DNA of 64,000 nt, taken from the NCBI GenBank assembly GCA_006212045.1, contig PZPK01000004.1, positions 1 through 64,000 on the forward strand, given 5' to 3'. Source of the DNA: Oleiphilus sp. (lineage in GTDB: Bacteria; Pseudomonadota; Gammaproteobacteria; Pseudomonadales; Oleiphilaceae). Both the position numbers and the translations under genes were made by a program. The notes below the pieces were generated by a model. It ran no database searches, was not told the origin of the DNA, and saw only the letters and a program-made list of their open reading frames with translations. Below, in pieces: positions 1,701-16,607 of this stretch; the stretch's first letter is position 1; each line of letters begins with the position of its first letter.

Positions 1701-2263
1701 GGTCGAATAAAAAACGTACTACAACAAGCAATGCAAACAATAGGGTTAGGCGCTCACTAGAAATACATTAATCCTGGTTTTTTATTCGCGTCTTGCCTGC
1801 CTCAAGAAAAGGGGAAGCACCTATTTTTTGCTCGCGTTCATTGGAGATTCCAGAAGTCCGCTTTCGGTCAGGAGCGAATGTAACTAGGTCTCGTTAGACA
1901 GGGTCTGCCTTACTTTTCAGAAGCTGCCATCTTTTAAAAGCGTTTCCTGCGTCTCCTTTGCCCAGCGCCAGCCCTAATTTTTAGTAGGAGCGCAATATCT
2001 GCTATTGTCTCATGCGAAAGTTAGGCAACTCTAGTTGCGATTGCCCGAGCAACCTATATGGTTACATTATGGTTTCGTCACCAAGGTCAGCTATCTCAAA
2101 GCCATCTTCAAGCACCCTGTTGAGCCACGGCGCCGTGTGAGGAACGAAAAATGTTGCGGTCTTTGATGAAGTTTTGTGGTGAAATGAGCGTTGGGAGCTC
2201 CCGAAAGTATTTTTTAATTTTTTACCGTTGGGCGCAGCTTGGGCACAATTTGGGCACAGAAAT
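1701..2263. other. gene-poor stretch between IS fragment and tRNA-Leu terminator
   Basis: No ATG-started frame of useful length is present. Near its right end lie two tandem TTGGGCACA units (about 2239-2258). They resemble the last bases of the tRNA-Leu gene (CTGGGCACCA) and could be a worn attachment site, though the orientation is opposite. I otherwise see nothing in this stretch. Confidence 0.4.
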
Positions 2264-2301
2264 AAAAAAGGCCGATATCATCCGAAGACGAATCGACCTT
2301 T
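2264..2301 (-). terminator. Rho-independent terminator of tRNA-Leu
   Basis: On the minus strand, AAAGGTCGAT...ATCGGCCTTT form a long stem closed by a C(TTCG)G tetraloop and followed by a T-rich tail. It lies about 40 bp past the 3' end of tRNA-Leu, in the right orientation to end that transcript. Confidence 0.8.
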
Positions 2302-2340
2302 CTTAAGAACTAATTGTTATTAAAAACAACTAGTTGAAAT

Positions 2341-2428
2341 TGGTGCCCAGGAGAGGACTTGAACCTCCACGGGGTTACCCCCACTAGCACCTGAAGCTAG
2401 CGTGTCTACCAATTTTCACCACCTGGGC
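2341..2428 (-). tRNA. tRNA-Leu (CAG)
   Basis: The minus strand reads GCCCAGGTGG at the 5' end and pairs with the CTGGGC acceptor 3' strand, followed by an encoded CCA. The anticodon loop TTCAGGT is closed by a CTAGC/GCTAG stem, giving anticodon CAG (leucine, CUG codons). The long variable arm (GGGGGTAACCCC) and the T-arm GGTTCAAGTCC fit a class II tRNA. Length is 88 nt including CCA. Its 3' end faces the gene-poor, IS-containing segment, a common layout where mobile elements integrate into tRNA genes. Confidence 0.95.
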
Positions 2429-2558
2429 ATTGCAACGTGGCACTTTTCACCACCTTTGCTCGACCACATTTGTGTCGAGGCCGCGAATTATCAACATCGG
2501 AATGCCTGCTGTCAACCGCAAATATCGGCTTCTTTCAACACTCCGCTGTTCGCACCTG

Positions 2559-4259
2559 TCACGCCTCTTCAATCCGCCTGCCTGAAGCACCTGCTGAAGC
2601 AGACAGAACCTTACCCGCCTCATTGAGTACAGTGTAATCTGAAGACTTCACAGAACTGACGAAGATCCATTCAGCAGTCACTTTTTGATGTGTCAGCTCG
2701 ACTGTCATAAAGCCACGGTCACCTGTATTTGCGAATTTCAACGGCTCTACAAGCTGAGTAACACCGGCCGCTACAGCCAAGGGATCTTCAGGCAGATACG
2801 TCTCCAACCCTGGAGAGGATACTCCGGGAGTCGCAAATTCAACGCCTACAGCGCTTCCATCCAAGGCTTCCAGATTGTTAGCCCAGGCATTATGTGTATC
2901 ACCCGCGAGACAAACCATGTTTTTGTTGAGAGCCTGTACCGTGCCAAACAGGACTTCCCGCTCATAGGCGTAACCATCCCAGGCATCCAGATTGTAAGGA
3001 ATAGAAGGCAGCTGAAGAATGGCCAACTGTTCGGGCGTCAACAACTCAGGGTTCGTTTGGGCCAGTTCTGCCAGCGCCGCATAGTCTCCCAGCGAGATCT
3101 GCTGGGTAGCCACCGCTGCCGGCAAAAGCATACGCCCCATCAGAACCTGCTGCCCCAGCACTTGCCAAGTTGCGCCGGATGTCGCCATGCCATTGGACAA
3201 CCAGTTCAATTGTTCCTGCCCCAGTAGCTGACGTGATGGATTTGATACATCGGCAACAAATGCTTCACCGTTGAATCCTCCCGTTAAGGGATCAATATAA
3301 TCTGCGTAATCGAGCTGCTTGTCACGCGCCACTAATCGGGTGTCCAACATATACAAACTGAGTAAGTCACCTACTTCAAACTGCCGATATACCTGATCAC
3401 TCACCTCTCCTTCCCGCACAGGCATCCACTCATAGTAGGCTTTCAAGGCCGCCGCTTTACGATCCGAAAACAGGCCCTCTCCTTCATTGTGATTCTCTGC
3501 GCCATCTTTGTACGCATCATTGGTAATTTCATGATCGTCCCAAACACAGATAAAAGGCTTTTTCTTGTGTAAACGCTGCAGAGCTTTATCAGATCGATAC
3601 TGGGCATAGCGGGTTCGATAGTCTTGCAAACTTATTATTTCCGTCAGGGGATTTGGAATTCGTCCCATTGCCTCGGCATCTTCCGTTGCATAGCCCCCCA
3701 TCCCGTATTCGTAAATATAATCACCAAGATGCAGCACAGCATCTACATCCCGTTGCTTTGCGGCCTCCTCGTAGGCGTGAAAAAAACCGGCCGGATAATT
3801 TGAGCAGGAGAAAACTGCCAGCTTGAAAGACTCCACATGCCCTTCGGGAAGTGTTCTGGTTTTACCTGTCGGTGAATCTATCAAACGCCCTTGCTTGTTC
3901 AGGGCAATAAACTTGTAGAAATATTTTCTTCCGGGCTGTAAACCTTCAACGTCGACCTTCATAGTAAAGTCTTTGCCTGCATCGGTTTTCACAAAGCCAT
4001 ACCGCACCACATGTCGAAAATGCCGATCTTTCGCTACCAGCCAAAGAGCCCGGGGAGAACTGGCTTCATCACTGGGAGTGACGCGAGTCCAGATAATTAC
4101 CTGCGTCTGGGTCGGATCACCGCTGGCAACACCATGCTTGAATTTTACGGGCGCAAATCCCCCCCAAAATCCCGCGTTTGCGCTCATTGCCAAAGCGCTG
4201 CCACCGGCTAGCAACCCACCTTTCAGAAGTGCACGCCTACCTATGGTTAATTGACTCAT
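2559..4259 (-). CDS. PhoD-type alkaline phosphatase/phosphodiesterase, Tat-exported
   Basis: This 566-residue protein belongs to the PhoD metallophosphatase family, which releases phosphate from mono- and diesters outside the cytoplasm. The N-terminus carries a twin-arginine signal (IGRRALLKGG followed by a hydrophobic stretch and ANA cleavage site), so it should be exported folded. Next come a PhoD N-terminal beta domain (about residues 35-140) and the metal-binding catalytic domain, with HLGDYIYEYG, VWDDHEITND and AGDTHN as the metal-ligand motifs. All catalytic motifs look intact. It stands alone, with rlmG upstream and tRNA-Leu downstream. Phosphate-starvation control is plausible, but I see no clear Pho box. 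Confidence 0.9.
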   Translation of the reverse strand: MSQLTIGRRALLKGGLLAGGSALAMSANAGFWGGFAPVKFKHGVASGDPTQTQVIIWTRVTPSDEASSPRALWLVAKDRHFRHVVRYGFVKTDAGKDFTMKVDVEGLQPGRKYFYKFIALNKQGRLIDSPTGKTRTLPEGHVESFKLAVFSCSNYPAGFFHAYEEAAKQRDVDAVLHLGDYIYEYGMGGYATEDAEAMGRIPNPLTEIISLQDYRTRYAQYRSDKALQRLHKKKPFICVWDDHEITNDAYKDGAENHNEGEGLFSDRKAAALKAYYEWMPVREGEVSDQVYRQFEVGDLLSLYMLDTRLVARDKQLDYADYIDPLTGGFNGEAFVADVSNPSRQLLGQEQLNWLSNGMATSGATWQVLGQQVLMGRMLLPAAVATQQISLGDYAALAELAQTNPELLTPEQLAILQLPSIPYNLDAWDGYAYEREVLFGTVQALNKNMVCLAGDTHNAWANNLEALDGSAVGVEFATPGVSSPGLETYLPEDPLAVAAGVTQLVEPLKFANTGDRGFMTVELTHQKVTAEWIFVSSVKSSDYTVLNEAGKVLSASAGASGRRIEEA

Positions 4260-4443
4260 ACTGATTCCCCCGTCGTTATATTTGTAGTGACTTCAGCACT
4301 CGGACCAAAACTTGCATTACCGATGCACAAGTCCAAGAATGCGTTTACCAGTTCAGGAATTCTGCGCCAATGCTTTGACAGCAATGTGACAAGCACAACA
4401 CTTTTTAGCCAGGCTTCACCGGACAGCATTCAGCTCGCACGTT

Positions 4444-5592
4444 TCAATTTATACTTTGGAGGAGAACAAATTTGTGATCTGAAGCCAAAACCCTGCAATT
4501 GCCAAACAATGACTTCAGCACTTTGTGGTACCCAAGGTGCCGGTTTGCAACAACCCACAATTCGCCTTGCCGTACAAGCGCCTTGAGACAATCAGAAAAA
4601 AGGCCGCGCGCAATCTCGGTACTGACGGTGGTTTGCTGGTGAAAAGGAGGATTACACAGAATCAGCTCATAGCCGTCGATCAGCGCGTTTTTCAAACCAT
4701 CTCCTGCCTGGACATGCGCTTTACGACCGACAAAATTCTTCTTAAGGTTACGCTCAGTACTGTCAATCGCCTGAAACGATTCATCATAAAAGTGCACAAC
4801 GGCTTCAGCGTGCTGCCTCATATAGGCCAGGCCCAAGACCCCATTACCACAGGCCAGATCCGCAACCAGATGTCGTTCGGGTATCAGATTCATGTTCTGG
4901 AGCATAAAGCGGCTACCGATATCCAGGCGTTCTCGGCTAAATACATTGGGAGCACTGACGAGTTTTAATTCATACCCGCTGAGCTCCACCGGATTGTCCT
5001 TCGGTAAACATGCGGTGAGGGATGAATCTGCCTGCGCACGCCAAATGCGTGCTTTTTTGACTCCAGGATAAAATTCAGCCGGGCCAAAGTATTCTGATAA
5101 CAGTTCGAACTGCCCGCGACTGAGATGTTTGTCCATTCCCGCCAGTAACAACTCACAACCTTGCGGAACCCATTGTCTTAGTGCAACAAGCAATGCGGCC
5201 AGTTGGGACTTCATTTTGGGGACTCTGCCGATTACCAAATCGGGACGCGGCATCGCACTCAGAAGGTCAAATGACGTTTGACTTACCAAATGCGAGTTGT
5301 CCAGACAATTGTCATCCATGTTTCGCCGAATGGCTTCAAAAGACAACCAGGAATCGCCATAAACGATCGGACGATAATTGAATAGCGGTAAGGTCAGTGC
5401 GCCAAACTGATCGTGCACTATGCAAAGCCCCGCTTCCGCCCCAGAACCTTCGAGACGTTGTTTCGCCTCAGACAGAAGATAAAGATCTGCGGCATCCCAG
5501 GCCCTTAACTGGCTGTTCGCGTAGAAAGGGTATCGCTTAAGCTTGAGCGATTGATCCGCATGAACAAATTGCTGGGTTTCGGATTCTGACAC
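4444..5592 (-). CDS. rlmG: 23S rRNA (guanine1835-N2)-methyltransferase RlmG
   Basis: This 382-residue protein is close in length and architecture to E. coli RlmG (YgjO, 378 aa). That enzyme methylates N2 of G1835 in 23S rRNA using S-adenosylmethionine. The N-terminal half is a degenerate methyltransferase-like domain and the C-terminal half is the catalytic one. The AdoMet motif ADLACGNGVLG is near residue 235, and the N2-guanine catalytic signature NPPFHQQ is near residue 315. It is a single gene, separated from phoD by about 185 bp and from the DUF1566 gene by about 155 bp. Confidence is high from the NPPF motif plus the two-domain layout. Confidence 0.88.
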   Translation of the reverse strand: MSESETQQFVHADQSLKLKRYPFYANSQLRAWDAADLYLLSEAKQRLEGSGAEAGLCIVHDQFGALTLPLFNYRPIVYGDSWLSFEAIRRNMDDNCLDNSHLVSQTSFDLLSAMPRPDLVIGRVPKMKSQLAALLVALRQWVPQGCELLLAGMDKHLSRGQFELLSEYFGPAEFYPGVKKARIWRAQADSSLTACLPKDNPVELSGYELKLVSAPNVFSRERLDIGSRFMLQNMNLIPERHLVADLACGNGVLGLAYMRQHAEAVVHFYDESFQAIDSTERNLKKNFVGRKAHVQAGDGLKNALIDGYELILCNPPFHQQTTVSTEIARGLFSDCLKALVRQGELWVVANRHLGYHKVLKSLFGNCRVLASDHKFVLLQSIN

Positions 5593-5746
5593 CGATCAAT
5601 TTCCTTAAAACTGCATTTATCAGCGCATCTTACACAATGATGTTTCCGGCCACGAATCCAACATTGGATTCTCCCTTTCCAATCACGCAATGCCGAACCT
5701 ACTGAATGGCACAACAAGAAAAACCACGAGTTATCCCGGCAATTGG

Positions 5747-6526
5747 TCACATGGGGGCGACAGCACGCAAATGGCAACTCAATCGCTTTTCCCGCACGTA
5801 GGATATCCCGTTGGAAAAATCTACTGACCAGGCTAACTCTCTGGAGAATTTGTTTTCCGAACCGCTCCAGTACTGTCCCGAACGGGTAAAAGGGAAATAC
5901 TCGCGATCGATGTCCGGACTGAAATTGACAGGGTGGTCGAGTGACTGCAACTCCAGTTGCGTCGGCAATCTCCAGCCGTTCAAACCGCAATGCCGGCTCC
6001 GATTCATCTCGGCCACGTAACTGCGGGTGTCGCAACTGATAAACAGGCAGTCGCCACTGTCTGCCAGGCCACTCTGTAGACCCTCTGCATCAACACTAAA
6101 CCAGCTGTAGGTGTGTTCGGCATCCCGCCAACTACCGTCATTCGTTTTGACTTCCCAGACCACCCGTTTCTGGCGATCAAGCACACAGCTCCATTGCGGC
6201 GCCTCCGCCGGTAGCTGTTCACCATGCGCATCGATTTTGACAAAGCGATCATCGAACTGTTCGACTGCTCTCGACTCGAGACCTGACACAACGGTCACAT
6301 GTGTAGTCTCCGGGTCTTCAGATAAGGTCAGCGGTACAGTATCAAGTGCCGAAGTGCTTTGTTCTGCTTTGACAACCTGATCACGCTTCGACTCTGGATA
6401 AAGCAACCAGACAAATACAAACGCGAGTAAGGCCAGCAACATCAGATCCACTAGCGCCAGAAAGAGGGCTCCCGGCTTTATAAGACCTGCAACACCTCGC
6501 TTACGACCATCATTGTCCAGTTTCAT
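5747..6526 (-). CDS. membrane-anchored DUF1566 (Lcl C-terminal-like) protein
   Basis: The 259-residue protein has a single N-terminal transmembrane helix (about residues 17-45, LFLALVDLMLLALLAFVFVWLL), with most of the chain on the far side of the membrane. The C-terminal 120 residues match the DUF1566/Lcl_C fold: a paired-Cys stretch (CLFISC), the GWRLPTQLEL signature, a YWSGSE motif and a final CHLRAVAP. Such domains occur on surface or periplasmic proteins, often near adhesion or motility genes, but no biochemical role is established. It is transcribed alone. The fold assignment is good and the function is open. Confidence 0.7.
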   Translation of the reverse strand: MKLDNDGRKRGVAGLIKPGALFLALVDLMLLALLAFVFVWLLYPESKRDQVVKAEQSTSALDTVPLTLSEDPETTHVTVVSGLESRAVEQFDDRFVKIDAHGEQLPAEAPQWSCVLDRQKRVVWEVKTNDGSWRDAEHTYSWFSVDAEGLQSGLADSGDCLFISCDTRSYVAEMNRSRHCGLNGWRLPTQLELQSLDHPVNFSPDIDREYFPFTRSGQYWSGSENKFSRELAWSVDFSNGISYVREKRLSCHLRAVAPM

Positions 6527-7208: not shown

Positions 7209-7237
7209 TGTAAGACCCGGACGCCTTACATTTTTTT
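7209..7237 (+). terminator. probable Rho-independent terminator after the PilZ gene
   Basis: TGTAAG (7209-7214) pairs with CTTACA (7225-7230), and seven T residues follow directly. It lies 48 bp past the PilZ stop codon and touches the stop of the convergent GGDEF-EAL gene. Confidence 0.6.
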
Positions 7238-9614
7238 AGCTGGCTACACGGTTTTGGCCGTCTCCTGACTCCCACCTGGCAGAGGTAGAGTCAGCCAGAC
7301 GGTGATCTGATAACCATTCAACAAATGAGTCGGCCGGCATGGGGCGTGCGATCAGATAACCCTGTATCATTTGACAGTTTAGACGCTTGAGAAATTGATA
7401 TTGCCCGGATGTTTCAACCCCTTCAGCAATCAACTCCAGACCGAGCGTCGATGATAAGCCGATCAGGGCAGCCGTAATCACATCCTTGTCGCTATCCTGG
7501 CGCGCATCGGAGATAAAGGATGGATCCATTTTCAAACGATCAATACCGGAATCTCGCAAACCGCCCAGAGAAGAATATCCGGAACCGAAGTCATCGATTG
7601 CCACAAGAACTCCCATACCTTTGAGGAGCTTGAGATTTTCGGCAATCACATCGCTATCAATCAATGTGCTTTCCGTAATTTCCAGCTCAAGCAAGGCCGC
7701 TGGCAGTCCGGTACTGTTCAGAATGGCCTGAACCCTGTCGGCCATATCACCTTGTCGAAGTTGGCGTACAGACATATTCACCGCAACTCGCAAATCTGTG
7801 AACCCCCTATCCTGCCAACGCATTGCATCTTCACAGGCGCGCTTCAGCACCCACTCCCCAACGCCCCTGATCAGACCAGTGTCCTCGAGCGAGGGAACAA
7901 ACTCGGAAGGGCCAATAATGTCTCCGCTACTGAACCAGCGTAAAAGTGCTTCAGCCGAGACGACTCGACCCGATTCCAGATCTACCACCGGCTGATAAAA
8001 CAGCTGAAACTCTCCTTTATCCAGCGCCGATCGCAAATGATTCTCCATTACCAAACGCCGTTGCGCTCTGTGATCCAGCTCTTTGGTGAAAAATTCGAAT
8101 CCCTGACGCCCTTTTTCCTTCGCGAGATACATGGCCGAATCTGCATTTTTCAGTAATCCCTGCGCGTCCTGAGCATCCTCTGGAAAGAGGGTTACCCCCA
8201 TGCTGGTTGAGACATGAATCGACTCTCCTGTAATCAGATAGGTGCCATTGATCGCCTTCAGTAGCTGATCAACGACACGCTCCAGATCTTCTGCGGATTG
8301 GACACGCTCCATTATCACAGTAAATTCGTCGCCGCCCAGCCGGGCCGCTGTATCGGCTTCACGCACCGTACTTTTCAAGCGGTTCGCAACCTGCATAAGA
8401 AGCGCATCGCCTGCCGCATGCCCCATCGCATCATTGATAGCCTTGAACTGATCTAGATCCAGGAAGATCAGTCCAACTTTTTGCTCATTGCGCTTGGCGA
8501 TATAGATGGCATGTTCGAGTCGATCAAGAAACAGCGCACGGTTTGGCAAACCCGTTAACGAATCGTAGCTAGCCAAATAACTGAGCTTTTCTTCCGCTGC
8601 CTTAAGCTCAGATATGTCATAGATCAAACTGGTCATACGCGATTTACCGGCCGTTACTCGCTTCACCTCACCTCGCTGAAGAATATCCTTATAGCCGCCA
8701 TCCGGCAGGCGAACACGTGCTTCGAATTCAAACCGGGAAGCATTCTGATTCGCTTTGTCAAATATCTCCCTGACACGCTGTCGCTCACTTTCGTCCAGAG
8801 CATCCAGAAAACATTCTGTTGACGGGTTGGTTTCCGGGTCAATTCCCAGAATTTCAAAGACACCCCGCGACCAACGATGCAAATTTTTGCGCGAATCCCA
8901 ATCCCATGTCCCAAAGCGCGCAATCGATTGCACATTCTCAATCACTTCCGCCAGATAAGCGGCCTGCTGAGCTGGCTTGGCAATATTTTTATCCACAATC
9001 CACGAGGTCGCACCAACAGAACCAAATACAAACAGCGCAATCAGGGTAAACACAAACTGCTCTTTTTCAGCGCGCTGGATCTGCAAACGCGACAACTGTA
9101 AGGTACGCCGCTCAGCCAGCATATTGGTAATTCTTTTCAGCAAGGCAATGGGTTGGTCTTGGAGACCCGATAGAAAATCAATCGGAACCTGAGTGAAACC
9201 TTCATCAGAATCATTCTGTCGCTGCACCGACCTCCGCAAGACTCTTCCCATCTCAAGGTGCAAAGTCTGGAGGTCGTCCACCAGAACTGACAGCAGAGGG
9301 TCGCTGCTAGTCGCTTCAGCCAATGCGCGGATGCCCAAGTGTGTGAGTTTTTCAGTACGATAAAACGCGCTCAGAAACTGATGGTAGCGACGGGGTTCAT
9401 CTCCTCTCAGCAACACATTTTTCCATTCGTTGAGCTGGTTCTGAAACAGGCCTTTTACCTCGTGACTCTGCTCCAGCATGGCATTGGATTTCAGAAGCAG
9501 ATCTTCTTCAGATTCAATCGAGTCCCTGTAAAAGTTGATGATATAGCCGCAAACTCCTAACCACATCATCAGGGTCAAGACGATGAGTAACAGGAGCTTC
9601 AAACGAACGTTCAT
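7236..9614 (-). CDS. membrane PAS-GGDEF-EAL cyclic-di-GMP enzyme
   Basis: I place the start at the ATG at 9614 (792 aa), because the N-terminal hydrophobic helix begins there; the ORF-track start adds 22 non-hydrophobic residues. Order: TM1 (about 5-27), a helical periplasmic sensor segment, TM2 (about 190-210), a PAS domain (about 230-345), GGDEF (about 350-515) and EAL (about 525-770). The GGDEF active site is intact (RLGGDEF) and is preceded by an inhibitory RxxD site (READ). The EAL domain keeps EALLRW, NMS, EITES, DDFGSGYSS and AEGVET, so both synthesis and hydrolysis of cyclic-di-GMP are possible. It is convergent with a PilZ gene and divergent from the DUF2452 gene. Confidence 0.9.
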   Translation of the reverse strand: MNVRLKLLLLIVLTLMMWLGVCGYIINFYRDSIESEEDLLLKSNAMLEQSHEVKGLFQNQLNEWKNVLLRGDEPRRYHQFLSAFYRTEKLTHLGIRALAEATSSDPLLSVLVDDLQTLHLEMGRVLRRSVQRQNDSDEGFTQVPIDFLSGLQDQPIALLKRITNMLAERRTLQLSRLQIQRAEKEQFVFTLIALFVFGSVGATSWIVDKNIAKPAQQAAYLAEVIENVQSIARFGTWDWDSRKNLHRWSRGVFEILGIDPETNPSTECFLDALDESERQRVREIFDKANQNASRFEFEARVRLPDGGYKDILQRGEVKRVTAGKSRMTSLIYDISELKAAEEKLSYLASYDSLTGLPNRALFLDRLEHAIYIAKRNEQKVGLIFLDLDQFKAINDAMGHAAGDALLMQVANRLKSTVREADTAARLGGDEFTVIMERVQSAEDLERVVDQLLKAINGTYLITGESIHVSTSMGVTLFPEDAQDAQGLLKNADSAMYLAKEKGRQGFEFFTKELDHRAQRRLVMENHLRSALDKGEFQLFYQPVVDLESGRVVSAEALLRWFSSGDIIGPSEFVPSLEDTGLIRGVGEWVLKRACEDAMRWQDRGFTDLRVAVNMSVRQLRQGDMADRVQAILNSTGLPAALLELEITESTLIDSDVIAENLKLLKGMGVLVAIDDFGSGYSSLGGLRDSGIDRLKMDPSFISDARQDSDKDVITAALIGLSSTLGLELIAEGVETSGQYQFLKRLNCQMIQGYLIARPMPADSFVEWLSDHRLADSTSARWESGDGQNRVAS

Positions 9615-10077
9615 TGACACATCCGCCCGAAAGCTGAAGTGCCAATCCACTTCATGGCAGCTCGGTTCAAAGCCCGCCAAATCGCCTTGCCGACCCGTAA
9701 ATTTCGCGTCATCCGCGGCAGGCAGTTGTTGAAAAGCAACTCATTTGGGCATGCGAGCAAACGGGAGAAGTAAACTGTTTTCTTCCCTTGCACGTATGGA
9801 CTGTTGGTGACTACAGGCTTCTGTGCAACCGGATAACTGAGACATGACGCCATAAAAGAACCTCTTATCTGGCTCATACCAGCGCTGCAGTACAAGCATT
9901 GCCCGGCAGCGTTCAATCAGAAATATCATTGAGGCGCTCATGCTGTGGCCTGAACCTAAAGAGACAGGCTTCGGACGACACAGCATCACAGGGTGTATTA
10001 AAGGTAGGCGTCCGCAAGAGAAAATTCAAACCCCGTTCGAACACCTCTTCGACAACGCAGCAACCACAAGAGAAACA
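9615..10077. other. intergenic region between divergent GGDEF-EAL and DUF2452 genes
   Basis: The ORF track lists several overlapping frames here, but none shows a recognisable domain or convincing codon bias, and they overlap each other on both strands. It should hold the divergent promoters. I see no strong hairpin or repeat apart from a small AGTTG/CAACT stem near 9725-9745. Confidence 0.35.
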
Positions 10078-10851: not shown

Positions 10852-13062
10852 GTGACCGAAGACGAACTGAACTTTGCGGAAGAAAGCGTCTCTGAACCCC
10901 GAAAACCCAAGCCACGCGAGTGGCTCGTTCTGATCGTAGATGATGAACGGGACGTGCATGAATCTACGGTACTGGCTCTCGGAAGGGAAAAGGTATGCGG
11001 CAGGGAGCTAAGATTTTTCCATGCCTATTCATCGACGGAAGCCCGGGAAATCCTTTCGGCAAAACGTGATTTCGCCATTATCCTGCTGGACGTGGTCATG
11101 GAGAACGAACATGCAGGACTGGACCTGGTCAAACATATTCGTGACGACCTCAAAATCCTCGACTCTCGCATCATTCTGCGTACAGGGCAACCCGGCTATG
11201 CCCCGGAACTTGATACCATCACGCGCTACGAAATCAATGACTACAAATCAAAATCGGAACTTACGCGCAACAAACTGTTCACAACCCTGACGGCAGCAAT
11301 TCGTTCCTACGCACAGGTGCGGGCGCTGGAACTGAGCAAACGCGGACTGGAAACCATCATCAAAGCCTCCAAAGAGCTACTGTATCTGCGGGGATATCAA
11401 GAGTTTGCCAGTGGTGTAATCACACAGATTGCGGCGCTTTTGCACCTGCCCGAGGAAGGTTTGGTGTTAGTCAAACGATTAGAAGCGCTGGATGACAGCG
11501 CCGCTGGCCTTCAGATTATTGCCGCAGCCGGGCGTTATAGCCATCTGATCATGAAACCGCTTTCAACGCTAAAGGACGAACTTTCAATTGCAGCGCTTGA
11601 GCAGGCTGCAGAACAAAAACAGAATATTCTTCTGGACGAAGAAACCTGCCTCTATTTCGATACACCGGACGGGACAGAGATGATTGTCTATCTCGCTGCA
11701 GGCATCGAAAAAAGCCGGGAAGAAATGCAATTGATAGAGTTGTTTTCGACTAACATTGCCGCCTGCATCGACAATATCACTTTGCTTGAACAACGACACG
11801 AGTATGCCTATCAGGATCAATTGTTAGGCATTCCCAACCGCCTTTCTTTTTTACAGGCGATTGACCACCATTTGCAGTGTCACAGCCCCAGTCTGCAGAT
11901 CGTGCTGATTGATATCGACCAGTTCGGAGCGCTCAACGATACCATCGGTACCGAGAACGGGGATCTTCTGCTGCAGGAGATCTCCTACCGACTAAGAAAC
12001 AAACATCCGCATCAACTGGTTGCACGCATTTCAGGTGATACCTTTGCATTGCTGGGCCCCTGCCAGACTCTCTCCCCGGAAAAGGTCAAAGCGGTTTTTT
12101 CTAAGCCCTTCGAAATTTCCGGCACGTCGCACACGCTGAGTGCCACTCAGGGTCGTGTGGTACTCGACAACCAGAAATCTGCAACGGAGGTACTGGCTCA
12201 GGCCAATGTCGCCCTCAAACGAGCCAAACAAACTTTGCGAGGAGGCTTTCAGGATTTTCACACTGACATGCTCAAGGAAACCGAAAGCCGGGTGCACCTT
12301 TTGCAGAACCTTAGACAGGCATTTGATCAGGAACGACTGTTCATGGCTTACCAGCCCAAAATTGAGCTGGCGACAGGCAAGCTGATCGGGTTTGAAGCAC
12401 TGATGCGCTGGAAGGCCGACACGGGCGGTTATGTGGCGCCATTGGAATTCATCCCGATTGCAGAAACATCCGGTTTAATCGTACCACTTGGAGAGTGGGC
12501 CCTGCGCGCTTCCCTGGTTAAAATTCGACAAATGCGAAAACGCTTTGGTAGCGATCTGACAATGGCCGTTAATGTGTCGATGGTGCAATTCGCGCAACCG
12601 GAATTTCTCTCCATGGTCGACGCAGCATTGGCGTTCGCCGAGGCAGAACCGGAAAGCCTTGAACTCGAGATCACTGAGTCGTTCGCCATGCATGATTTTG
12701 AAACGGTATGTGAATTAATCAACGACATTCATGCAAGGGGTATTCGCATTGCGATTGACGACTTTGGAACTGGCTTTTCCTCCCTTTCTTACCTGGAAAA
12801 ACTGCGTGTCCATAGCCTTAAAATAGATAAAACCTTTGTCGACCGGATCAATGAGAACGATCTGGACACCCGCATACCGGAAACCATTCTTCGCCTGGGG
12901 CACAGCCTTGGTCTCTCTGTTGTTGCCGAAGGTATCGAAACACAGTTTCAGGCAGACTGGCTAAAAAGCAACCAATGCGACTTCGGTCAAGGCTACCTGT
13001 TTGCCAAGCCGCTTTCGGCGGTCGAACTGGAACAATGGACCCGCAGCTATGCTTCCGATTAA
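10852..13062 (+). CDS. response regulator with DUF3369, degenerate GGDEF and EAL output
   Basis: The 736-residue protein starts at GTG. Order: receiver domain (about 24-150) with acidic pair Asp30/Asp31, phospho-acceptor Asp80 and the switch Thr in RTGQP; DUF3369 (about 155-320); a GGDEF-like domain (about 325-460); and EAL (about 470-720). The GGDEF site reads SGDTF and has no RxxD site upstream, so it cannot be expected to make cyclic-di-GMP. The EAL part keeps EALMRW, NVS, EITES, DDFGTGFSS, the catalytic-region KIDK and AEGIET, and should hydrolyse it. The likely role is phosphorylation-controlled cyclic-di-GMP breakdown. A binding-protein lipoprotein and a kinase follow on the same strand, very closely spaced. 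Confidence 0.9.
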   Translation: MTEDELNFAEESVSEPRKPKPREWLVLIVDDERDVHESTVLALGREKVCGRELRFFHAYSSTEAREILSAKRDFAIILLDVVMENEHAGLDLVKHIRDDLKILDSRIILRTGQPGYAPELDTITRYEINDYKSKSELTRNKLFTTLTAAIRSYAQVRALELSKRGLETIIKASKELLYLRGYQEFASGVITQIAALLHLPEEGLVLVKRLEALDDSAAGLQIIAAAGRYSHLIMKPLSTLKDELSIAALEQAAEQKQNILLDEETCLYFDTPDGTEMIVYLAAGIEKSREEMQLIELFSTNIAACIDNITLLEQRHEYAYQDQLLGIPNRLSFLQAIDHHLQCHSPSLQIVLIDIDQFGALNDTIGTENGDLLLQEISYRLRNKHPHQLVARISGDTFALLGPCQTLSPEKVKAVFSKPFEISGTSHTLSATQGRVVLDNQKSATEVLAQANVALKRAKQTLRGGFQDFHTDMLKETESRVHLLQNLRQAFDQERLFMAYQPKIELATGKLIGFEALMRWKADTGGYVAPLEFIPIAETSGLIVPLGEWALRASLVKIRQMRKRFGSDLTMAVNVSMVQFAQPEFLSMVDAALAFAEAEPESLELEITESFAMHDFETVCELINDIHARGIRIAIDDFGTGFSSLSYLEKLRVHSLKIDKTFVDRINENDLDTRIPETILRLGHSLGLSVVAEGIETQFQADWLKSNQCDFGQGYLFAKPLSAVELEQWTRSYASD

Positions 13063-13113
13063 CACATACCATCCACTGTGGACCGATACCACCATCAGCA
13101 AAAGGTAGTAAGC

Positions 13114-14256
13114 ATGCCGTTGTTCAGACAACAAACAACCTCCCTCCGTCATATCGTGCTGTACACTTCCCTGTTGGCGATGACGGGCTTGCTTGCGGCA
13201 TGTGGGGAAACCAGTCCGTGGAAATTCGGTTTTGTGGGCGGGCTTTCAGGCAGTATTTCAGATCTGGGAGGACCTTCGAGAAACGCAATGCTGCTGGCAA
13301 TCGAGGAAGCCAATGCCTCGGGAGGCATTGATGGGCGTCAGATTACTGCCCTCGTCAAGGATGATCAACAACACCCCGAACATGCAGTGGCCGCGGTCAG
13401 GGAACTGATCAAGGAGCAGGTCGATGTCATTATCGGGCCCGTCACCAGTGCAATGGCGAAACAGGTAGTGCCCCTGGCGAATATCCACCGCAAGCTGATG
13501 GTAGGCACCACTGTCACCACAAATGAACTCAGTGACCTGGACGACTATTTTATCCGTACAATATCGCCAACGAGCAAAAATGTTTCAAAGATTGCCCGGT
13601 TCCTGTATCGGGAAAAAAGCTTGCGCCGGTATGCCGGCCTTTATGATTTAAGAAACAAATCTTTTACCCAAAGCTGGATCGAAGACTTTGACCAGCAGTT
13701 TACAGAACTTGGAGGCCAGTCTACACAGCTGCTGACCTTCGCATCTGGAAATCAACAGGCCCTCGTCAGTCTGGCAGAACAGCTCCTGGAGAACGACCCG
13801 GACCTGATTGTCCTGGTTACCAATGCGCTTGATGCGGCACTGTTGTCCAAGCTAATCAGATCACTCAATAAACGGGTCGTAATTGCAACATCCGAGTGGG
13901 CAGGCACCGAACGACTAATTCAACTTGGCGGAAAACATGTCGAGAACATTATTCTACCGCAGTTTATTGACCGCGAAAGCAAGCAACCGTCCTATCTGAA
14001 ATTTCGCGCCAACTACAAGCGCCGCTTTAATTCCGAACCGGGATTCCCGGGCTTCATTGCTTACAACGCCACCAATGTGGTGGTCGAAGCGCTAAGGGAA
14101 AATCCGGCAGCTGAGGAGCTCAAAAAAACCATACTTTCCCGAAAGCGTTTCCCTGGCCTGCAAGGTGACATCCTGATAAACGAGTATGGAGATGGCAGAA
14201 CCGAAATGTATATCTGCCAAGTGATTAATGGTCATATCATCGTGGTAAGCCGCTGA
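13114..14256 (+). CDS. periplasmic-binding-protein-type lipoprotein (Peripla_BP_6/Leu-Ile-Val family)
   Basis: I chose the ATG at 13114 over the upstream GTG (13078) because AAAGG lies just before it and the signal peptide then begins properly; the product is 380 aa. The signal ends in a lipobox (LLAAC, Cys30), so the protein is membrane-tethered. The mature part follows the branched-chain amino-acid/amide binding fold, including the motifs GGLSGSISDLGGPSRNA and VIIGPVTSAMA. No ABC permease or ATPase gene is nearby. It sits between an EAL response regulator and a sensor kinase, whose start overlaps its stop (TGATG), so it may serve as the ligand-sensing subunit of a signalling system rather than in transport. 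Confidence 0.85.
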   Translation: MPLFRQQTTSLRHIVLYTSLLAMTGLLAACGETSPWKFGFVGGLSGSISDLGGPSRNAMLLAIEEANASGGIDGRQITALVKDDQQHPEHAVAAVRELIKEQVDVIIGPVTSAMAKQVVPLANIHRKLMVGTTVTTNELSDLDDYFIRTISPTSKNVSKIARFLYREKSLRRYAGLYDLRNKSFTQSWIEDFDQQFTELGGQSTQLLTFASGNQQALVSLAEQLLENDPDLIVLVTNALDAALLSKLIRSLNKRVVIATSEWAGTERLIQLGGKHVENIILPQFIDRESKQPSYLKFRANYKRRFNSEPGFPGFIAYNATNVVVEALRENPAAEELKKTILSRKRFPGLQGDILINEYGDGRTEMYICQVINGHIIVVSR

Positions 14257-16607
14257 TGGCGAGCAAACAAACGCTACGCCGTGAACTGCTCAAGCAACTG
14301 GGGCTGGTCGCAACAATACCGGCCCTGGTGACCTCCCTGTTTTTGTTATGGGGGCTTTATCCGCAGTTAAGCAAAAATATTTATGAAGAGCAGCAATCGA
14401 TCGCCCAGCTTGTCGCTCTGGAAACCAGAGAACGCATTATTGCCTCCGAAGAGCAGGTTCAACTGCTGTTGGAAATGGCTCGCTTATCGGGAAAAGACTA
14501 CCTCCGATCATTAATGGCCCGTTTCACTGAAAAGAACAACTACTTCGATACGCTTTACATCCTGGATGAATTCGGAAGCATTGAGTACATTACAATTCGT
14601 GGATTTACGGAGTTTTCCGGAAATGAGCTCTATCAGGGCATAGACATGTCCAAGTCCTCATTGTTTGTAGAACATGACCATCAGCTCGAATCTACCTGGT
14701 CCAGCGTTTTCCTGTCCGTTGTCACGGGGCGCCCATCCATCGCCTATATGGTCCATGCCGGCACTCAATACCTGGTGGCCGAACTCGCCATTGACCGGCT
14801 TCCCAAACTTAGTGAAGAGCTGATGCAGCATGACATCCTGCTGGTACTGTTCGACCAACATTCCCAAATTATTGCTCACCCGAGCTCCGGGGTCAGCCAG
14901 CAACTCGTCAACATGAGCCGTCTCCCTTTATTGCGAGAGGCTGTCGCCGGGGGAAAAGAGATTATTTTTGGCGAGTTTAATATGGATCAGCAAACTTACG
15001 TTGGCACGATGGTCAGTGTAGACAATCCCCCCTGGCACATTCTGGTTGCGGAAAACAAGGACAACCTGCTGGCCCCGCTTTATAACGCATTACAAACATG
15101 GCTAATCGCCATGCTGATTATTTTCGTCATTAGCCTGATGATTGCTGAGCGCAGAGCCCGAAACCTGATCGAGCGGATAGATATTCTGAATGATCATGCC
15201 CGCGACATTACTCGCGGCTACTATGACCGCACCTACGACAAGCAGGATATCGTCGAGTTCAAAGAGTTATCGGGTAATCTGGTCAAAATGGCCAAAGCGA
15301 TCTCTGACCGTGAACGTGAATTGAAGATGCAGGAACAGCAGTTACGCAACACGCTCGAAAGTGCGCCCAACATCGCCATTCAGTGGTATGACGAAAATGG
15401 CAAGGTCTTCTACTGGAATCCGGCCTCTGAACATATCTTTGGCATCGGCCAGCATGAGGCTTCCGAGGTCAGTATCAACCTTCTGATGTTTCCTCCTGCC
15501 GCAGCTGCAGACTTTGTAAAAATCCTGAAAAGGGTTGCTCAAAAACATGTCAGCAGTGAAGAGTTTGAGCTTCCCTTCACACACAAATCCGGCGACAAGG
15601 GTTTTGTGCATGGTACCGTTTTCAGTGTTCCTTCCGGACAGGGGGAGGACTTATGTGTTTGCATGATGACAGACGTGACAAAACAGCGTCAGGCCGAAGC
15701 CAGCATCCTGAAACTGAATCAGGATCTGGAATCCCGTGTCGAAGAACGCACGCAGGAACTCAAGCACAGCAATCAGGAGTTGGAGGAAACGATTGCCACG
15801 CTCAACCGAACCATGAACCAGCTGGTGCATTCCGAGAAACTGGCGGCACTGGGCAGCCTGGTCGCAGGCGTTTCGCATGAGCTCAACACGCCGATAGGCA
15901 ATGCCCTGATGGCTTCCTCCAGCCTGCGAGACTTTACACTGGAGATCCAGGCTCAGTTGCAGCAAGGCAATATGAAAAAATCATCACTGGAACGCTTCCT
16001 CGAAGATACCATCGCCGCCAGTGGTATCACGGAACGCAACCTTGAGAAAGCCTCGGAATTAATCACGAGTTTCAAGCAAGTGGCGACAGATCAAAGCAGC
16101 TCTCAACGACGCGAGTTCTCATTGCAGCATCTGACCGAGGAAATCCTACTGACACTGCACCCGCAAACCAAGAAGGTACCGGTGGAGATCGAAACAGAAA
16201 TTCCGGAAGACATTGTGCTGGATAGCTACCCGGGGCCCTTGGGGCAAATCCTGAACAACCTGGTGCTTAACGCGATTGTGCACGCCTTCCCTGATGAACA
16301 GCCCGGCACCATTCGTATTAGTGGCACCAATTTCGGAGGCATGGTCAGTATCTTCGTCAGGGACGATGGCGTCGGAATCGAAAAATCTGCCATCAAACGC
16401 CTGTTTGACCCCTTCTATACCACACGACTTGGACAGGGAGGCTGCGGGCTGGGTTTGCATATCGTCCATAACCTGGCGACAGATGTACTCGGCGGCTCAA
16501 TCAAAGTCAGCTCACTTCCGGGAGAAGGAACCACTTTTACGCTGACCATTCCGGAGTCTGCCCCGATAGGGCCGGTGCAAACCAATGAATCACAGAAATC
16601 CGGTTAG
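14256..16607 (+). CDS. membrane sensor histidine kinase with dCache, PAS and HisKA domains
   Basis: The 783-residue kinase has TM1 (about 12-34), a periplasmic dCache-like sensor (about 35-275), TM2 (about 283-303), a HAMP-like linker, a PAS domain (about 365-485), a coiled coil, HisKA and the ATPase domain. The phospho-acceptor is His541 in GVSHELNTP. The ATPase keeps the N box (NNLVLNAIVHAF), G1 (DDGVGI) and G2 (GQGGCGLGLHIV). The start overlaps the stop of the binding-protein gene by one base, so translation is probably coupled. The obvious partner is the EAL response regulator two genes upstream. This HisKA type is often seen with DUF3369 regulators; specificity here is inferred from position. 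Confidence 0.9.
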   Translation: MASKQTLRRELLKQLGLVATIPALVTSLFLLWGLYPQLSKNIYEEQQSIAQLVALETRERIIASEEQVQLLLEMARLSGKDYLRSLMARFTEKNNYFDTLYILDEFGSIEYITIRGFTEFSGNELYQGIDMSKSSLFVEHDHQLESTWSSVFLSVVTGRPSIAYMVHAGTQYLVAELAIDRLPKLSEELMQHDILLVLFDQHSQIIAHPSSGVSQQLVNMSRLPLLREAVAGGKEIIFGEFNMDQQTYVGTMVSVDNPPWHILVAENKDNLLAPLYNALQTWLIAMLIIFVISLMIAERRARNLIERIDILNDHARDITRGYYDRTYDKQDIVEFKELSGNLVKMAKAISDRERELKMQEQQLRNTLESAPNIAIQWYDENGKVFYWNPASEHIFGIGQHEASEVSINLLMFPPAAAADFVKILKRVAQKHVSSEEFELPFTHKSGDKGFVHGTVFSVPSGQGEDLCVCMMTDVTKQRQAEASILKLNQDLESRVEERTQELKHSNQELEETIATLNRTMNQLVHSEKLAALGSLVAGVSHELNTPIGNALMASSSLRDFTLEIQAQLQQGNMKKSSLERFLEDTIAASGITERNLEKASELITSFKQVATDQSSSQRREFSLQHLTEEILLTLHPQTKKVPVEIETEIPEDIVLDSYPGPLGQILNNLVLNAIVHAFPDEQPGTIRISGTNFGGMVSIFVRDDGVGIEKSAIKRLFDPFYTTRLGQGGCGLGLHIVHNLATDVLGGSIKVSSLPGEGTTFTLTIPESAPIGPVQTNESQKSG

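Follow-up and report, generated by a model that had tools for sequence, protein, structure and literature searches.

A predicted binding-protein-gated histidine kinase controlling a cyclic-di-GMP phosphodiesterase in Oleiphilus

What might a ligand-binding lipoprotein with no transporter be doing between a cyclic-di-GMP (c-di-GMP) response regulator and a sensor kinase? The question is raised by three same-strand genes (10852-16607) in the window, the 64,000-nucleotide stretch of Oleiphilus DNA analysed here, which encode a REC-DUF3369-degenerate GGDEF-EAL regulator, a Peripla_BP_6 lipoprotein (a solute-binding protein, SBP) and a dCache-PAS histidine kinase (Table 1). Here, we propose that the best reading of the locus, and a probable one, is a binding-protein-gated kinase that controls a c-di-GMP phosphodiesterase. 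The membrane-anchored lipoprotein, a Venus flytrap of the Peripla_BP_6 family, would catch a small molecule in the periplasm and, once loaded, contact the dCache domain of the neighbouring kinase. The kinase would then alter its autophosphorylation and phosphorylate Asp80 of the regulator, and the phosphoryl state of Asp80 would set the regulator's hydrolysis of c-di-GMP. Sequence and comparison establish the parts, their pairings and the catalytic sites; docking, phosphotransfer, the class of ligand and the direction of the response are what we infer. Activation of the phosphodiesterase by the signal, as opposed to its inhibition, is a guess.

Table 1. Positions in the window of the three genes and of their domains, motifs and key residues
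Feature	Position	Strand	Details	Basis
Response regulator REC-DUF3369-degenerate GGDEF-EAL	10852..13062	+	736 aa; GTG start; predicted c-di-GMP phosphodiesterase	Pfam, catalytic residues
REC domain	10927..11256	+	phospho-acceptor Asp80 (codon 11089-11091), Thr111, Lys132	active-site residues
DUF3369 domain	11287..11793	+		Pfam E 4e-47
Degenerate GGDEF domain	11806..12237	+	SGDTF at residues 394-398; predicted cyclase-inactive	Pfam E 2.5e-21
EAL domain	12304..13011	+	EAL, N, E, DDFGTG, K, E, Q residues intact	Pfam E 4e-68
Peripla_BP_6 solute-binding lipoprotein	13114..14256	+	380 aa; ATG 13114; GTG 13078 alternative	Pfam, model
Lipobox L-L-A-A-C	13189..13203	+	lipidated Cys30 at 13201-13203	sequence, homologue alignment
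Histidine kinase TM-dCache-TM-linker-PAS-HisKA-HATPase	14256..16607	+	783 aa	ORF, Pfam, model
Periplasmic dCache sensor	14364..15089	+	residues 37-278; predicted partner surface for lipoprotein	model, Foldseek, homologues' Pfam dCache_1
Cytoplasmic PAS domain	15339..15674	+	residues 362-473	Pfam
Phospho-accepting His541 codon	15876..15878	+	in GVSHELNTP	Pfam, residue check
HATPase_c domain	16236..16556	+	residues 661-767	Pfam E 3e-25

The genes lie as the original prediction had it, on one strand and tightly spaced, with the kinase starting at the last base of the lipoprotein's TGA stop codon and so overlapping it by one base. For the lipoprotein we prefer the ATG start, which gives a good lipobox and leaves 51 nt after the regulator gene; with the alternative GTG this gap would be 15 nt. 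Such spacing is the basis on which the three genes are presumed to be co-transcribed; a scan of the locus for promoters and terminators gave counts equal to those in shuffled sequences and nothing above them. No ABC ATPase ORF was returned by a scan of the 64-kb window for Walker A plus signature motifs, in keeping with the claim that no ABC transporter stands beside the lipoprotein. Upstream, on the opposite strand, the window encodes a membrane PAS-GGDEF-EAL protein (7236-9680, minus), and locus L015, also from a member of the genus, has one that is 52% identical (122-2485, minus).

Is the regulator a phosphodiesterase? Its REC match falls below the Pfam cut-off, but the active-site residues D80, T111 and K132 are nonetheless intact, and the succession of phospho-Asp, Thr and Lys and then DUF3369 is that of a REC-DUF3369 regulator. 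These REC residues and the EAL catalytic residues are intact in the window regulator and in 11 orthologues. By contrast with the GG(D/E)EF motif of diguanylate cyclases, the window has SGDTF and the motif is degenerate in 11 of 11 orthologues; hence the regulator is expected to degrade, not make, c-di-GMP. The residues named earlier, a degenerate GGDEF, an intact EAL and Asp80 as the phospho-acceptor, have thus been confirmed, with DUF3369 as a domain that had gone unnamed, and c-di-GMP hydrolysis as the output is supported by the state of both motifs in the whole clade. A search of its own genome for DUF3369 gave this protein as the single match.

The kinase ends after its HATPase domain and, unlike a hybrid kinase, has no receiver domain of its own. 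Its dCache match is below the Pfam cut-off, and homologues in the same position pass dCache_1. The structure model of the sensor (mean pLDDT 87) matches dCache crystal structures with Foldseek E-values of about 1e-10 (best 4e-12), and two TM helices flank the domain, so that the predicted periplasmic sensor and His541 are borne out by model and residue check. In PctA, the ligand carboxylate is bound by Arg126 (PMC10104139). Arg131 of KinD, identified from an R131A mutant chain, was taken as the equivalent residue; by sequence alignment only, this column holds Arg in two of 28 sensors and Ser134 in the window, and the carboxylate-binding Arg that marks dCache_1AA domains is absent from the window sensor. 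Because this usual Arg is missing from the dCache, the lipoprotein is the likelier ligand-binding part.

The lipoprotein is a clear Peripla_BP_6 member (Pfam E 9e-46), and its model (mean pLDDT 94.9) has a TM-score of 0.83 to 3td9 and resembles leucine-binding proteins; together with LLAAC and Cys30, this upholds the Leu/Ile/Val-binding-protein fold and lipobox first read from the sequence. The lipidated Cys lines up in 30 of 31 homologues and is one residue off in the remaining one. The fold is that of the LivJ/LivK-type transporter proteins, but cognate permease and ATPase genes do not lie nearby, and in none of the inspected homologous neighbourhoods does an ABC ATPase gene adjoin the SBP. 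Two other Peripla_BP_6 genes in the window's genome do have ABC genes. An orphan ABC subunit is disfavoured, the SBP standing without an adjoining transporter ATPase gene in every locus. A further Peripla_BP_6 gene of the same genome (L066, G000 contig 14, 9000-21000; gene at 5281-6453, minus) stands immediately before the gene for a membrane hybrid kinase (1936-5217, minus) with a weak dCache match, not before a transporter, and the two make a second, different SBP-sensor pair.

One feature of the lipoprotein sits uneasily with docking. The lipid Cys is followed by Gly-Glu, not Asp, and the tether is very short (13201-13215), with about 5 residues between the Cys and the first beta-strand. 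In E. coli, lipoproteins without Asp after the lipid Cys are sorted to the outer membrane. An SBP held there could hardly touch an inner-membrane dCache domain, as a tether of this length is too short for the periplasm. The predicted sorting thus conflicts with the proposed contact, and either the sorting rule of this clade would differ or our model would be wrong.

How widely are the three genes kept together? A lack of conserved co-occurrence would have counted against the original prediction, but the three-gene order was found in the window and in 11 other loci, with the regulator directly upstream of the lipoprotein in L015 to L022, L024, L031 and L037 (the contig of L024 ends inside the lipoprotein gene, with the kinase beyond view). 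Of the named isolates Reinekea blandensis and Motiliproteus coralliicola, the second alone has the three genes side by side. The nearest relative, in the same genus, is the metagenomic Oleiphilus G157 (contig CAJWBE010000001.1). More broadly, the SBP lies directly upstream of a same-strand dCache receptor in 30 of the 31 loci with sequence beyond the SBP gene, the exception being G019 (L023), where it stands alone. In a scan of named genomes, such SBP-dCache loci cover Gamma- and Betaproteobacteria, Geobacter and other Desulfobacterota, Myxococcota and one spirochaete, and SBP identity across them falls to 31%. SBP-kinase junctions are mostly 4-nt overlaps or gaps of less than 35 nt, and the genes flanking the cassette mostly differ between genera. 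Conserved adjacency and an SBP not dedicated to an adjacent transporter are the marks of an SBP-stimulated kinase couple, and both are seen here. The cassette is nevertheless rare and patchy: the lipoprotein was found in 11 of 163 genomes in a family-wide search, in 6 of 392 in an order-wide search, and in 2 of 369 sampled genomes of the class, the window's own included.

The outputs behind this sensor are not fixed, though many of them bear on c-di-GMP. The same dCache domain is followed by plain kinases, by hybrid kinases that carry receivers, by a GGDEF-EAL fusion, and by a hybrid kinase with a REC-GGDEF protein; in L056 and L057 the hybrid kinase has an Hpt domain and a separate REC-GGDEF regulator adjoins. 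In a Competibacteraceae genome, a dCache-PAS-PAS-GGDEF-EAL protein with both motifs intact (L038, 2483-5671) comes directly after the lipoprotein gene and is apparently a one-step version of the circuit. The lipoprotein-dCache pair is, as far as these comparisons reach, a seemingly portable front end that is plugged into different outputs in different bacteria.

Do the lipoprotein and the sensor evolve together? The distances among SBPs and those among sensors rise together, with r = 0.86 across 29 loci and 0.92 across 18 well-aligned kinases, whereas the values are 0.42 and 0.64 when the SBPs are set against the catalytic core of those polypeptides; the difference between sensor and core is positive in every 70% subsample, a contrast that rests on partly saturated distances. 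Vertical descent adds to such correlations, and what carries information is the difference between sensor and core within a single protein. Supported clades of the SBP and sensor trees also agree, as for the window with L015 and L031, and for L056 with L057. The contig of L031 is labelled Xanthomonadaceae DHS20C11, and the grouping of its cassette with the window's genus in both trees suggests horizontal transfer or a mis-binned contig. The two modules also occur joined: PDB 5ERE (Dret_0059 of Desulfohalobium retbaense) is matched by the lipoprotein profile at residues 16-321 and is matched by the dCache model too, its dCache lying at residues 322-562 (PMC8694187), so that Peripla_BP_6 and dCache occur in one natural polypeptide. 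Unlike the cassette, 5ERE is a fusion and not a separate lipoprotein, and its ligand is listed as cytosine in the dCache part.

On the other side of the kinase, the distances among regulators are correlated with those among kinase cores (r = 0.955, n = 11). DUF3369-GGDEF-EAL regulators adjoin kinases of the same core family with unrelated sensors at 8 loci in the family and order, and kinases with this dCache sensor at 2 additional loci. One Hahella genome carries a second cassette (L118) that keeps this order with an SBP_bac_8 binding protein encoded by its middle gene; the layout of regulator, binding protein and kinase therefore uses at least two binding-protein families.

Hahella also provides a natural experiment. 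In G007 (L110, 2735-6965) and G008 (L109, 2662-6962), the regulator and the dCache kinase abut, the lipoprotein gene is missing from the junction, and neither genome yielded a close family member elsewhere. A hidden SBP was rejected, the best matches checked being LivK-like proteins beside liv-type permease genes. Since these kinases group with that of the SBP-bearing Hahella locus L020 (support 100/99), loss of the lipoprotein gene is the simplest account. Of 21 positions that SBP-linked sensors conserve, 10 are altered in these two sensors, more than in any other sequence, compared with 2 in L020; and L109 and L110 are 55% alike in the sensor and 84% in the core, while an SBP-bearing pair whose cores are equally similar is 78% alike in the sensor. 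The lost positions D130, S132, F152-L153, G158 and Q216-Q217-x-N219 are candidates for reading the binding protein, and as candidate contact residues they make the SBP-reading surface of the sensor directly testable. As a single event, this loss with its sensor decay suggests a dependence of sensor on SBP and is not proof; that Hahella keeps kinase and regulator afterwards implies that the kinase may act without the SBP. Taken with conserved adjacency, co-divergence and the natural fusion, the decay lends weight to the predicted partnership of the lipoprotein with the kinase's periplasmic sensor, and the predicted pairing of the kinase with the EAL regulator is likewise supported.

In light of these findings, what else might the locus be? 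A kinase that senses its own ligand through dCache, with the lipoprotein an accessory scavenger or orphan transporter subunit sharing the operon, would accord with the direct ligand binding common among dCache domains, with the two Hahella genomes that do without the SBP, and with reports that sbp and kinase genes can lie side by side without a link (PMC11113362). It fits poorly, however, with a dCache domain that is missing the carboxylate-binding Arg, with SBP-sensor adjacency and co-divergence that persist across phyla while outputs change, with the decay of conserved sensor positions upon SBP loss, and with an SBP that no transporter ATPase gene adjoins in the inspected neighbourhoods, and we think it unlikely. 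It is distinctly improbable that the lipoprotein gates a kinase which acts mainly through a partner other than the adjacent EAL regulator, the regulator then being under another kinase or working independently of phosphorylation. Although Reinekea and two related genomes have the same kind of kinase without a DUF3369 regulator alongside, DUF3369-EAL regulators adjoin kinases of this core family even where the sensors differ, regulator and core distances are closely correlated, and the genome yields no other DUF3369 protein. That the three genes are neighbours by chance, with no functional link, is barely credible: a rare and patchy distribution would allow it, but the same order recurs in 12 divergent loci with mostly different surroundings and overlapping junctions. 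A binding-protein-gated kinase acting on the adjacent phosphodiesterase is the reading that we retain.

How does this proposed circuit compare with known systems? In LuxP-LuxQ of Vibrio AI-2 sensing, a soluble binding protein likewise gates a dCache histidine kinase, but LuxP belongs to a different PBP family and LuxQ is a hybrid kinase that feeds LuxU-LuxO, not an EAL regulator. To our knowledge, LuxP is not a lipoprotein. For the Cache domain of LuxQ, the published list gives no ligand (PMC8694187). A binding protein also governs the turnover of c-di-GMP in NspS-MbaA (Vibrio cholerae) and ScrB-ScrC (V. parahaemolyticus), as proposed here, but with no kinase or response regulator step. Their topology of an SBP and a transmembrane GGDEF-EAL protein is shared by L038, whereas the window interposes a kinase and a soluble regulator. 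The SBPs NspS and ScrB belong to families different from Peripla_BP_6, and ArtI of Salmonella is an ABC-transporter SBP. TorT-TorS, BctC-BctE, XylFII-LytS and other couples also have adjacent SBP and kinase genes, but their SBP families and outputs differ. We know of no EAL regulator in any of these couples. ArtI-STM1987 resembles the cassette in combining an amino-acid SBP with a dCache_1 receptor acting on c-di-GMP (PMC8846402), and differs in that STM1987, a diguanylate cyclase, is a single protein. Precedents for c-di-GMP enzymes under the control of an SBP are thus NspS-MbaA, ScrB-ScrC and ArtI-STM1987 (PMC8846402, PMC9602780). Genes are adjacent in 10 of 11 characterised SBP-sensor-kinase couples, and in two P. 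aeruginosa cases neighbouring sbp and kinase genes gave no detectable interaction (PMC11113362). DUF3369 is known with REC and HD-GYP (PMC4212101, PMC9756655); the REC-DUF3369-HD-GYP regulators, such as V. cholerae VCA0210 (PMC4212101), likewise place a REC-DUF3369 input on a c-di-GMP phosphodiesterase, but with HD-GYP in place of GGDEF-EAL and with no binding-protein gene described.

The principle is thus already known, as the original prediction recognised in citing precedents, which now number about ten SBP-sensor-kinase couples plus the SBP-controlled c-di-GMP enzymes; the combination of parts would be new. In the literature searched, with subscription journals mostly outside it, we came across neither a Peripla_BP_6 lipoprotein described together with a dCache kinase and a DUF3369-EAL regulator, in agreement with the earlier view, nor an exchangeable front end. 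A wider claim is that an inner-membrane Leu/Ile/Val-class lipoprotein would be the obligate ligand-binding subunit of a non-binding dCache receptor, a widespread and undescribed two-protein front end that would have been fitted to EAL and GGDEF regulators, hybrid kinases and GGDEF-EAL enzymes alike; we hold this to be evenly poised between right and wrong. For most sensor kinases and c-di-GMP enzymes no signal is known, and stimulation by binding proteins has been proposed as a reason why ligand screens with isolated sensor domains fail. In this family there are many natural couples with several types of output, and one SBP loss with matching sensor decay.

What, finally, might the ligand be? 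In an alignment with E. coli LivK and LivJ, the columns of LivK Ser79, Thr102 and Glu226 hold Ser in 31 of 31 SBPs, Thr or Ser in 28 and Glu in 26. We take these to be the residues that hold the amino-acid backbone. In the branched-chain pocket, Trp/Tyr18, Tyr202 and Tyr/Phe276 align with Leu, Asn and Pro. Branched-chain amino acids were rejected as the ligand, as the fold fits but the side-chain pocket differs. With the backbone positions kept and side-chain positions 18, 202 and 276 changed, an alpha-amino-acid-like, non-branched-chain ligand is favoured, and the alignment makes an alpha-amino-acid-like ligand the most likely class for this SBP. The cassette would then link a probable amino-acid-like signal to c-di-GMP breakdown. 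Neighbouring genes were set aside as a clue to the ligand, there being no consistent neighbour and speD being near two loci only. These S-adenosylmethionine decarboxylase genes, for polyamine synthesis, lie at L024 3626-4447 and L050 2682-3506 in two unrelated genomes, possibly by chance, or possibly as a hint at a polyamine-related ligand.
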